A stretch of DNA of 64,000 nt, taken from contig CALYQW010000002.1 of the NCBI GenBank assembly GCA_945290265.1, positions 175,159 to 239,158 of the forward strand, read 5' to 3'. This document shows positions 5,201 to 56,648 of the stretch, one piece after another. The position numbers and the translations under genes were made by a program. The notes beneath the pieces are model-generated. The model did not search any database. It saw only the letters and a program-made list of their open reading frames with translations, and was not told the DNA's origin. The stretch's first letter is position 1, and every line of letters starts with the position of its first letter. This DNA is from an uncultured Erwinia sp. GTDB taxonomy: Bacteria; Pseudomonadota; Gammaproteobacteria; Enterobacterales; Enterobacteriaceae.

Positions 5201-5289
5201 TAAAATATTTCTCATCTGCGGCGAACTTTCTGCACTGACAGAAGTCTGAATTAGTGCCACTGCTTTTCTTTGAAACCCGAAATTGAGGT

Positions 5290-5325
5290 ACCCGTTGAAC
5301 CTGTGTTCAGCGGGTTTTTTTCGTT
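5290..5325 (+). terminator. Rho-independent terminator after ybjL
   Basis: An ACCCGTTGAAC / GTTCAGCGGGT stem of 11 pairs (one G-T) around a CTGT loop is followed directly by a run of T residues. It lies 90 nt after the ybjL stop and reads in the same direction. Confidence 0.9.
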
Positions 5326-10234: not shown

Positions 10235-11146
10235 TTAAGAGGGTAATTTAGGATCGAGCGCATCACGCAGGCCGTCTCCCAACAGGTTAAACGCCAGCAC
10301 GGTAAGGAAAATCGCCAGTACCGGAAACAGCGCCACATGGGGTGACAACACCATATCCGCCCGGGCTTCATTCAGCATCGCACCCCATTCCGGGGTGGGC
10401 GGCTGCGCCCCGAGACCAAGAAACGACAGGCTGGCGGCCGAGATAATCGCCGTGCCAATGCGCATGGTAAAATAGACCACAATTGATGACAGCGTGCCTG
10501 GCAGAATATGACGTAAAATAATCGTCGCATCGCTGGCACCAATACTGCGGGCAGATTCAATATAAGGCAGCTGCTTTAAAACCAGGGTATTGCCGCGCAC
10601 CAGGCGGGCAAACGCCGGCACGGTAAATATCGCCACGGCAACAATCACATTGGCCATGCCGCTACCCATAATCGCCACGATGGCAATAGCCAGTAAAATT
10701 CCGGGAAAGGCAAACAGCAGATCGCACAGCCGCATAATCAGACGATCCCACCATCCCTGATAATATCCCGCTACCAGGCCCAGCAGGGTGCCGATGACCG
10801 CCCCCACCGCCACTGAAACAAATCCGGCAATCAGCGACAGCCGGGTGCCGAGAATAATACGGCTGAAAATATCCCGTCCCAGGGCATCCACACCAAACCA
10901 GTGAAGCGCGGATGGCCCCTCATTCAGCCGGTCATAGTCAAAATAATTCTCTGCATCAAAGGGAGCCAGCTGAGGCGCAAACAGTGCTACCAGAATCAGC
11001 AAAAGCACAAAAATGCCGGCCACCAGCGCCAGATGCTGCTGACGAAAACGGCGACAAAACGCACGCCATGGGGTACGCCGGTGGGGATGTTGCAGGCCGG
11101 GCAGTGCAGAAAGCGCCGCCTGACGTCGCCAGTTGATCATTACCAC
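10235..11146 (-). CDS. gsiD: Glutathione ABC transporter permease GsiD
   Basis: This 303-residue inner-membrane permease of the DppC type is the last gene of gsiABCD. The N-terminal INWRRQA, the [14 protein letters not shown] block and the C-terminal [16 protein letters not shown] match E. coli GsiD. The EAA loop ([21 protein letters not shown]) is near residues 190-215. With GsiC it forms the channel through which GsiB-bound glutathione enters, powered by GsiA. The start lies 3 nt after the gsiC stop. Confidence 0.95.
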
Positions 11147-33899: not shown

Positions 33900-34447
33900 T
33901 CTGTTTTTATCAGGCTGCCAGCCTGGCTCCCACCCGCTGGCACAACGGTGGCGGGATCACCCGGGAAATTATCAGCTTCCCGCCGCATCAGGCGGCATTT
34001 GATTTTCGTTTCAGCATTGCCACGCTCAGTGGCGACGGGGATTTTTCCCGCTTTCCCGGGGTGGATCGCACCATTACGTTATTACGCGGCGATGGCGTGA
34101 CGCTGCATCTTAACCGTCACACCTTAAAGACCTTGCAACCTGGCATTCCCTTTTACTTTCCCGGCGAGCAGGCAGTGCGGGTAACGCTGAGTGAATCCGA
34201 CAGCGACGATTTTAATATTATGGTACGCCGCGACCGTTACCGCGCCACTGCCGGCACCAGCCAGAGCGCACACTGCCTGAAAAACAGCCTGGCGGGCGTG
34301 GTGTATGTACTCAGCGGTCAGTGGCACGATGGCCGCCAGGCACTGAACCCCGGCGAGGGAGTCTGGTGGCATCAGCAGGTGGGTAATGTTATTCCGCTGA
34401 CCTCCGATGCCCACCTGCTGTGGGGAAGCGTCAACCGTAATTTTTAA
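33896..34447 (+). CDS. hutD: HutD family protein
   Basis: This 183-residue HutD/DUF886 protein is cupin-like. RWHNGGGITREI at residues 14-25 and FRFSIATLSGDGDFSRFPGVDRTITLLRG are the family signature. HutD is thought to modulate hut expression or flux and has no established catalytic activity. It overlaps hutF by 4 nt upstream. Its last 17 nt overlap the convergent 3' end of hutC. Confidence 0.9.
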   Translation: MICFYQAASLAPTRWHNGGGITREIISFPPHQAAFDFRFSIATLSGDGDFSRFPGVDRTITLLRGDGVTLHLNRHTLKTLQPGIPFYFPGEQAVRVTLSESDSDDFNIMVRRDRYRATAGTSQSAHCLKNSLAGVVYVLSGQWHDGRQALNPGEGVWWHQQVGNVIPLTSDAHLLWGSVNRNF

Positions 34448-35186
34448 AATGTCCTAACAGTTTATAGCGCGATCCCGGATACAGCAGGCGGGCGTAGGTG
34501 ACAATATTGCTGTCACTCCAGGTCTGGCGGCGGATCAGCAGGCAGGGCTCCTCGGGATAAATCGCCAGATGGCGACACTGCTGTGCATCCGGCAGTACCG
34601 CTTCAACAATATGCTCACCCGCCGTTAACGGTGCCACACGCATCAGATAGGTGTAGGGTGTTTGTTGCAGGTAGTCCTGATTCAGATAATCCGGCGCCAG
34701 TTGCGGATTCACCAGCCGGTCTTCCAGCTGTACCGGCAGATCATTTTCATAATGAACCAGCAGCGAACGATACAGCGGTTGTCCGCTGGATATGCCTAAC
34801 ATCGCCGCCTGCTCGAGATCGGCCCGGCTCTCCTTTAGTAGCAGGATCTTACAGCTGTGATGGTGGCCGCGTTGGGCAATTTCGTCCGCAATATTATGGA
34901 CTTCCAACATCGCCGTATAGCCTTTCACTTCTGCAACAAAAGTGCCCACCCCCTGCATTCTGACCAGAAAACCTTCGCTGGTCAGCTCACGCAGCGCGCG
35001 GTTAATGGTCATGCGGCTGACGCCCAGTTCCTTAACCAGTTCACTTTCGGAGGGAACGCGCTGATTCGCCAGCCAAATACCTTCACGGATCTGGCGGATA
35101 ATCGCCTGCTTAACCCGTTGATAAATCGGCGCGGGACGCTCACTAATCGCCGCGGAAAGTTGAGAAATGGCTGTCTGCTCCGCCAT
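34431..35186 (-). CDS. hutC: Histidine-utilisation repressor HutC
   Basis: This 251-residue GntR-family repressor of the HutC/FadR type has an N-terminal winged helix (residues 20-85: YQRVKQAIIRQIREGIW, PSESELVKELGVSRMTINRALREL) and a C-terminal UTRA ligand domain. Urocanate is the known inducer. It is divergent from hutHU with operator-like sites between them, and convergent with hutD with overlapping ends. Confidence 0.93.
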   Translation of the reverse strand: MAEQTAISQLSAAISERPAPIYQRVKQAIIRQIREGIWLANQRVPSESELVKELGVSRMTINRALRELTSEGFLVRMQGVGTFVAEVKGYTAMLEVHNIADEIAQRGHHHSCKILLLKESRADLEQAAMLGISSGQPLYRSLLVHYENDLPVQLEDRLVNPQLAPDYLNQDYLQQTPYTYLMRVAPLTAGEHIVEAVLPDAQQCRHLAIYPEEPCLLIRRQTWSDSNIVTYARLLYPGSRYKLLGHFKNYG

Positions 35187-35260
35187 ACAGGATCCTTAGC
35201 GCCTGGCCCGATAGCGGCGCAATAACAGTAAATTTTATAGTTTAGCGTCCGCAATCTTAT

Positions 35261-35272
35261 CTGTATAGACAG
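35261..35272. promoter_or_regulatory. HutC operator 1 in the hutC-hutH intergenic region
   Basis: CTGTATAGACAG is a near-perfect palindrome 75 nt upstream of the hutC start. It shares TGTATAGACA with operator 2 at 35385-35397. Its placement suggests autoregulation of hutC. Confidence 0.75.
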
Positions 35273-35384
35273 GAAATGTGTACTGAGCTGCCCTCCTCTA
35301 ATCAAGTCTCAACTGGCGTAATGCTCCCGGATTTAATTTACCCACTGCCGGATTGTGTGATCGTTACTGCATATTAAAATATAC

Positions 35385-49261: not shown

Positions 49262-49562
49262 TTTGCCTGTGATGTTGACCTGGCTTTTGACTTTGATGTT
49301 GCCCTGGTTTTTGACTTTGACCTTTGGGCGGCATCAGTAACAGAGCCGAGGTTGCGCCGGTTTCAAGGAAGAGCCGCCAGGACGGCGGCGAAAGGCGTGT
49401 TGAGACAGGATGTCGAATCGCGCCGGTCCGCCAGAAAGCGGCGTGGCCGAGGGAACCCGCGCCAGCGGGCGACGTGACGCCGCAAGCCCGGGTGCAGGGC
49501 GGCGGCGACTGGCCGCCCTGCTCGCCAGTCCGCGCAGCGGAATGGTGAAACGTCGTTGACCT
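49262..49562 (+). repeat. Hexamer-led structured repeat, copy A
   Basis: The left part (49262-49325) is an array of degenerate 6-bp units (GTTGAC, TTTGAC, GTTGCC, CTGGTT). It leads into CTTTGGGCGGCATCAG and then about 240 bp rich in inverted repeats. A copy in the opposite orientation lies at 56345-56648 and shares long blocks such as CGCCGGTCCGCCAGAAAG and GTGACGCCGCAAGC. Stems differ by paired changes: CCCGC/GCGGG (49456-49469) here replaces CCCAC/GTGGG there, and GGGCGGC/GCCGCCC (49497-49518) replaces GGGGCGAT/ATCGCCCC. Reading frames are not conserved between copies, so it is not a gene. A direct repeat CTGGGTTTTA follows at 49561-49584. Confidence 0.8.
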
Positions 49563-53243: not shown

Positions 53244-53422
53244 GGGCTAAAACTTAACGGCTGATGATTAAGGTGTGAATATTCACACACTGCTATCGGT
53301 AGTGTCTTTCCGGGGTCCGGGCATCGCGAATCCATTTGACATACAGATAGCTGGCTGGCGCATAATACGCTGCCGCTGAAGCTTTTTTCCATTATTTATT
53401 CGTTTCCGGGCATGTCAAAAAT

Positions 53423-56344: not shown

Positions 56345-56648
56345 AGGTCAACGACGTATCTCCATCCCACTTTGTGGGCTGGTGACAAGGGGCGATCAGT
56401 CGCAATCGCCCCCTGACCCCGTGCTTGCGGCGTCACATCGCCCACTTCGTGGGTTCCCTCGGCCACGCCGCTTTCTGGCGGACCGGCGTGATTCGCCGTC
56501 CAGGCGAAGCACGCCTTTCGCGACCCTCTCTGGCCGCTCTTCCTGGAAATCAGCGTAACCTCGACGACGTTCCTGATGCCGCCCAAAGGTCAACTGCAAA
56601 GGCAAGGTCAACGGCAACGGCAACGGCAACGGCAACGTCAATGGCATC
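56345..56648 (-). repeat. Hexamer-led structured repeat, copy B (inverted relative to copy A)
   Basis: Read on the minus strand, an array of GTTGCC/GTTGAC units (56584-56648, four identical GTTGCC in a row) leads into TTTGGGCGGCATCAG and a structured core ending at CGTCGTTGACCT (56345). Stems include CCCAC/GTGGG (56441-56453) and GGGGCGAT/ATCGCCCC (56389-56412), both with compensatory changes against copy A. A further hairpin (CTCCGC/GCGGAG, around 56326-56341) and sequence to about 56281 extend beyond the shared part. On the right, degenerate hexamer-like sequence runs up to the eda ribosome site. Confidence 0.8.

Follow-up and report, generated by a model that had tools for sequence, protein, structure and literature searches.

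The closest described relative of the element reported here is the TwoAYGGAY RNA (Rfam RF01731), which a 2010 table, in the part available, lists as probably an RNA and probably not cis-regulatory, from the human gut, gammaproteobacteria and Clostridiales (PMC2864571), and which, in the available passages of a 2014 motif study, was predicted to bind CsrA and was still an RNA of unknown function (PMC4333381). Our element has the same two adjacent AYGGAY-type hairpins and many of its copies score over the curated cut-off. It differs in that the Rfam model has 168 positions whereas here these hairpins are the core of a fold of ~250 nt with further conserved hairpins, in its hexamer leader, high copy number and head-to-head pairing, and in that the Rfam type is Cis-reg whereas nothing here indicates a fixed regulated gene. 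The CsrB, CsrC and RsmX/Y/Z sponges share with it the GGA-loop hairpins and CsrA as the expected partner, but here the hairpins are in dispersed repeats with about two each, csrB is a separate gene, and no sigma-70-like promoter was found at either copy in the window (the 64,000-nucleotide stretch of DNA that was analysed), so that expression would need read-through. REP, BIME and REPIN sequences are, like the present element, interspersed, extragenic and palindromic, occur in inverted pairs and avoid divergent spacers. Unlike those that go with a RAYT, the unit here is much longer and has a multi-hairpin fold, and the assembly is without a Y1_Tnp match. The Bordetella BRE repeat, found through an sRNA, also has numerous copies, several of them at one locus, but in the available part of its description it is ~90 bp long and betaproteobacterial, and it is likened to our element by that description only (PMC3110155). 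The literature found, at the level of titles, abstract openings and some passages, neither describes the present repeat nor reports TwoAYGGAY to be an interspersed one. As far as the searches reach, it is new that TwoAYGGAY forms the centre of an interspersed, hexamer-led repeat that is partly head-to-head and mostly faces gene 3' ends, that hairpins are shuffled between copies, and that this genome has three csrB matches against one in each of 36 congeners. What we describe is a real, high-copy, RNA-folded repeat, in which a known but unexplained RNA is extended and multiplied.

The repeat and its fold

Two copies lie on opposite strands of the window, at 49262-49562 (+) and 56345-56642 (-). 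Reading and alignment confirmed at both places the pair of inverted, hexamer-led structured repeats described in the first-pass annotation; in each copy a hexamer tract leads to the joint CTTTGGGCGGCATCAG and then to a block of hairpins, and the two cores are 81% identical. Copy 1 (+ strand throughout) begins with a degenerate tract of ten NT[T/G]GNN units, one of them imperfect (49262..49321), followed by the joint, which is the first conserved block of the core (49322..49337). Its structured core, ending GTTGACCT, spans 49310..49562 and scores 269.7 bits with R1, a covariance model that we built from 36 copies. Within it are hairpin H5 (49373..49389), whose loop AGGAC is the first GGA loop and corresponds to hairpin 1 of TwoAYGGAY; hairpin H7 (49404..49414), GAC-AGGAT-GTC, which contains ACAGGAUGU, the second GGA loop; the hairpin CCCGC/GCGGG (49456..49469); H11, GGGCGGC/GCCGCCC (49497..49518); and H12, which starts TCGCCAGTCCGC (49522..49548). 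Copy 2 (- strand throughout) has nine hexamer units by eye count (56589..56642), the same joint (56573..56588) and a structured core at 56345..56600 with an R1 score of 287.4 bits. Its H5 (56520..56537) has the loop AGAGAG and has lost the GGA, as have only 2 of 66 full-length copies including this one; its H7 (56492..56508), TTCGCC-TGGAC-GGCGAA, retains the GGA loop; and opposite the quoted stems of copy 1 it has, as had been noted, CCCAC/GTGGG (56441..56453) and, in H11, GGGGCGAT/ATCGCCCC (56389..56412). An Rfam scan of the whole window at gathering cut-offs gave only the RybB sRNA (5259-5323) and a Peptidase-S11 leader RNA (53252-53369).

The hexamer tracts are not a product of chance. Among the 66 full-length copies they are 1-21 units long (median 6), whereas of 1320 letter shuffles 1266 had no unit and none had more than 3. 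The unit is N-T-(T/G)-G-N-N, with T at 0.98 in position 2 and G at 0.99 in position 4, bases that the rule itself selects. In the related genome G014 the 3' side of the copies likewise runs into hexamers. The suggestion that similar hexamer-led repeats occur in other gammaproteobacteria held for the core, which is present in Pseudomonas, Stutzerimonas and others. In 110 Pseudomonas-type pattern matches the hexamer tract did not exceed shuffles. Fifty of these 110 matches contained a rough 3' motif, and hexamers are visible by eye upstream of a few distant elements (L137, L144).

The consensus of the 36 copies has 59 pairs, and standard pairs occupy 98.2% of its cells compared to 91.8% in shuffles, a measure biased towards this structure, which comes from that very alignment. 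Changes on both sides of a pair were seen in 124 cells against 31.3 in shuffles, while further standard pair types were not above shuffles (44 against 44.3). The folding energy of copy 1 is modestly low, with z-scores of -1.92 and -2.03 for two overlapping pieces; thus the case for structure rests on the covariation and the energy alone is unremarkable. With the 36-copy and 66-copy alignments, and with no reading frame conserved, the proposal that a folded nucleic acid and not a protein is maintained is supported, and on this genome neither a lack of excess paired change nor a conserved frame was found.

GGA loops, RNA strand and the Csr system

Judged by its covariance-model matches, the core of the repeat is Rfam TwoAYGGAY. 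The curated gathering cut-off of RF01731 is 43 bits, and in a permissive Rfam scan copy 1 (34.6 bits) and a copy in G015 (L065, 34.9 bits) are below it. Over the cut-off are matches within copies of the genome itself and of G048, G014 and G008; in the permissive scan these scores were obtained at L061 (54.8 and 43.2 bits), L005 (54.6 and 45.1), L034 (51.7 and 49.7) and L060 (44.6 and 44.1). The genome as a whole has 44 RF01731 matches at E <= 1e-3, at least 22 of them over the cut-off among the matches listed. A survey of 369 sampled genomes of the class, in which filters were strict and no more than 7 candidates were scored in each genome, gave a match at E <= 1e-3 in at least 24 and one over the cut-off in at least 16; when more candidates were scored in G014 and in ten genomes chosen from the survey matches, each gave 6-40 matches.

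The GGA is kept in the H5 loop of 64 and in the H7 loop of 65 of the 66 full-length copies, while the stems vary by paired changes (mean stem identity 0.876 for H5 and 0.860 for H7). Part of the copies have the exact AYGGAY hexaloop and the others have AGGAC, AGGAT or TGGAC; one H7 allele, ACAGGATGT, we take to be the core of the CsrA selection consensus. When GGA-loop hairpins were counted by a rule asking for a loop of 4-8 closed by at least 5 contiguous pairs, the 66 cores had 1.64 per core in the sense direction, 0.45 in antisense and 0.52 in dinucleotide shuffles, and 35 cores from elsewhere in the genus had 2.14, 0.26 and 0.53, respectively. By the same rule a single such hairpin was present in 29 of the 66 cores here and in 7 of the 35 elsewhere. 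The GGA is not the sole constrained loop, since in the 66 copies the GCG and the last G of the H11 loop are conserved equally. At L126, L129, L130 and L131, in distant genomes of three families, the loop of hairpin 2 is ACACGACGT instead of ACAGGACGT and its GGA is lost.

The strand in which the fold is read was examined by comparing G-U with A-C cells in stems that came from a fold computed with G-U pairs disallowed, which gives neither strand an advantage. G-U exceeded A-C by 121 to 47 in the 66 copies and by 20 to 10 in 16 copies of G014, the cells not being independent of each other; a 37-row alignment from other genomes, made to fit the R1 structure, had equal numbers (59 and 61). Changes towards G-U against the opposite numbered 92 and 112 in paired columns, compared to 21 and 84 in unpaired columns. 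The consensus energy in sense and antisense was -170.1 and -154.3 in this genome, and -181.4 and -182.3 in G014. The G-U asymmetry gives moderate support to an RNA read in the sense direction.

The genome has a single csrA gene. It has three csrB matches over cut-off, all on the minus strand (two on contig C15 at 34423-34709 and 34991-35274, and one on contig C53 at 10418-10749), whereas each of the 36 other genus genomes has exactly one. The three differ in sequence and contain 14, 16 and 23 GGA. These over-cut-off matches lie outside the window, in which the CsrB model (RF00018) had no match. Three csrB would fit a genome under pressure to titrate CsrA, although this is one case and the link between csrB and the repeat rests on one genome.

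We propose, with a probability of roughly one half, that the copies are dispersed 3'-end RNAs that titrate CsrA; this is the best reading of the sequence evidence, and transcription, CsrA binding and titration are all parts of it that we infer. The unit is the degenerate hexamer tract together with a ~240-nt RNA fold, in which the two adjacent TwoAYGGAY hairpins present loop GGA, the shape and sequence bound by CsrA/RsmA dimers. Transcription leaving a gene would place the sense element in its 3' UTR or in a processed 3' fragment, where it could offer candidate CsrA sites. The summed copies and the three csrB genes would then reduce the pool of free CsrA, and any single copy could in addition link the transcript that carries it to CsrA.

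Copy number, exchange and head-to-head pairs

Both window copies are part of an interspersed repeat family, of which their own genome has about 75 copies. A search of this 3.44-Mb genome with R1 found at least 96 places at E <= 0.01, a lower bound because 150 of 1419 first-look candidates were scored; at least 72 places score 195 bits or more and at least 75 score above 110 bits. A blastn-type search gave at least 49 places with 40 of 93 candidates scored. The median pairwise identity between copies is 0.81. Copies or fragments are at or near the ends of contigs C3, C5, C7, C16, C42, C47, C57 and C60; the assembly therefore probably breaks at the repeats, and the copy number may be underestimated. 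Among 37 genomes of the genus, this one included and with 55 candidates scored in each, 15 had an R1 match and 22 did not; G014 had at least 31 places and 13 further matching genomes had 1-11, many of them weak. In G008 tandem copies stand beside a gene that is lptG-like (L060, L075 and L087) and more are at the start of contig C6, so that the contig break is probably inside an array. An element beside the lptG-like gene was found in four low-copy relatives (G008, G015, G016 and G020). In G016 two small overlapping genes adjoin the element (L062:1834-2399), a pair that we take to resemble a ParE-type toxin and its antitoxin. Here and below, dld-like, lptG-like and mechanosensitive channel are gene names that we presume from the sequences. 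No plasmid homologue was found by blastn with one window copy, no phage homologue by blastn with the other, and an exact 33-base pattern had no match in a named genome collection.

This distribution, with at least 96 places here and at least 31 in G014 but 0-11 in each of the remaining 35 genus genomes, favours the strongest alternative to CsrA titration, which is that the repeat is a mobile element whose fold serves its own copying through a single-stranded or structured DNA or RNA intermediate, with GGA loops to which a copying factor, either its own or one of the host, binds, and with no regulatory role. The site of copy 1 points the same way. The tract of copy 1 starts 9 bases beyond the stop of the dld-like gene, a spacer of which both flanks were matched in eight relatives. 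The element is absent from this spacer in G008, G007, G002, G004 and G003, the five relatives examined, at a divergence too high to show the junction, and the spacers of G001, G005 and G006, of about 1.7 kb, were outside the comparison. Copy 1 was therefore either gained in this lineage or lost in the others. At the second window site the relatives matched too poorly to compare.

Exchange between copies is also in keeping with a mobile element. When four hairpins were typed by short strings, the 66 copies made up 49 combinations. For the major subtype (57 copies), r2 averaged 0.909 in paired columns and 0.230 within a hairpin; across hairpins it was 0.086 within 15 bases, fell to 0.041 at 31-60 bases and was 0.021 beyond 120 bases, and the permuted mean was 0.017. 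By permutation close neighbours keep some association (H5-H7, p 0.006; H11-H12, p 0.0005) and the other 8 of 10 hairpin pairs have none (p 0.09 or more). That identical multi-base alleles stand on many backgrounds points to exchange rather than to parallel mutation: copies appear to trade entire hairpins almost freely, and beyond about 60 bases the copies are near linkage equilibrium. This bears on the compensatory stem changes first seen between the two window copies. Pairing is indeed maintained, but the differences between the two copies should not be taken for independent mutations since whole hairpins have apparently been swapped, and because a few self-complementary hairpin alleles have been recombined there were fewer independent compensatory events than the cell counts suggest. 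Gene-conversion tracts are usually longer than about 60 bases. With linkage gone within about 60 bases, the exchange raises the question of its mechanism.

Head-to-head pairs, seven in this genome and twelve read in other genus genomes, are a further point in favour of mobility. In most of them an AT-rich, partly palindromic centre separates the two arrays, which face each other, and the pair forms a long imperfect inverted repeat whose outer ends frequently pass into hexamers. The flanking ORFs converge on the pair in 6 of 7 cases in this genome and in 9 of 12 in the other genus genomes; a pair in a convergent spacer would present a sense element to transcription from either side. The same minus-then-plus arrangement was seen by eye, among the matches listed, in G138, G209, G319, G413 and G292, and with R1 in 15 of 26 named loci of Pseudomonas, Stutzerimonas and gammaproteobacterial MAGs, these 26 being drawn from 80 listed by name out of 120. 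In Pseudomonas-type loci R1 mostly matches at positions 58-121 only, which is the TwoAYGGAY part, and the pairs there have no convergent bias (4 of 14 classified among 15, with crude ORFs).

What is against the mobile-element explanation is that no candidate mobiliser of the families searched was found, that no element ends can be defined and that the strand-asymmetric G-U excess points to RNA. In the assembly, which is rated 98% complete, Y1_Tnp had 0 matches with 2 candidates scored, and RVT_1 had 0 candidates; these are the transposase and reverse transcriptase families that were sought. The co-occurrence with a RAYT that had been raised was thus not borne out; with no Y1_Tnp match in this assembly membership in the RAYT/REPIN class is not supported, nor, with no RVT_1 match, is a retroelement (group II intron or retron). 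G014 has one Y1_Tnp match of 29.6 bits and one RVT_1 match of 40.7 bits. G052 has 64 Y1_Tnp matches yet no R1 match. A MITE would be expected to have terminal inverted repeats and target-site duplications; no target duplication was seen by eye at the copies, and neither a target duplication nor a fixed end is definable because hexamers flank both sides in many copies. On balance we consider a purely mobile element without a regulatory role somewhat unlikely.

Placement at gene 3' ends and coding potential

The genes beside 75 copies, members of pairs being counted singly, were identified by a crude ORF caller with a minimum of 70 aa. In 59 of 71 cases the gene downstream is directed towards the element, and where both neighbours were called (62 copies) 32 copies are between convergent genes, 19 are antisense in tandem, 10 are sense in tandem and 1 is in a divergent spacer. 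Thus the copies mostly have their 3' side facing the 3' end of a gene and half are between convergent genes. Together with the many strong hairpins, this placement would suit elements that terminate or protect mRNA at its 3' end, like REP/BIME stabilisers, the GGA loops being incidental. However, for such a function stems would suffice, and the retention of the GGA in 64 and 65 of 66 loops is left unexplained. In addition, no terminator-like site was found on either strand at copy 2, and copy 1 has one sense site, of 5 pairs and just past the core, and three on the opposite strand. We regard this explanation as improbable.

Some copies are crossed by ORFs of about 100-150 aa. The six frames are open through the core in 0, 1, 0, 20, 7 and 18 of the 66 copies, so that no frame is conserved, which agrees with the original remark that the open frames of the two window copies are not shared, and the core lengths are spread over the three phases (18, 25 and 23 copies). 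The longest ORF across copy 2, of 134 aa, had no Pfam match and two partial matches at E <= 0.001 among 5.8 billion proteins. A protein-coding reading was rejected, there being no shared frame, no length phase and no family for the ORFs tested. That coding, or the recent duplication of a block, has produced the covariation as an artefact, as the ORFs crossing some copies might suggest, is hardly credible when no frame or length phase is conserved, the ORFs tested have no family or broad homologue, moving the partner by 1-3 columns in the 36 copies leaves 29.9-49.8% of cells paired instead of 98.2%, and the median pairwise identity is 0.81.

Titration of CsrA by dispersed 3'-end RNAs is the reading that we prefer. 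A broader proposal, which we put forward as doubtful, is that TwoAYGGAY is not cis-regulatory and would be the core of self-spreading, RNA-structured repeats of gammaproteobacteria, often head-to-head 3'-end cassettes, which reach tens of copies with neither a RAYT nor a reverse transcriptase and exchange single hairpins, and that these may act as a dispersed CsrA sponge reshaping the Csr network of the host, in this genome together with a threefold csrB. Placed at the heart of a high-copy repeat, TwoAYGGAY comes with dozens of natural variants per genome, many of them with swapped hairpins. If the copies bind CsrA, then a repeat family, beyond the dedicated sRNA genes, would set the free level of a global regulator, and the genome may be dotted with spare candidate binding sites for its master regulator CsrA.
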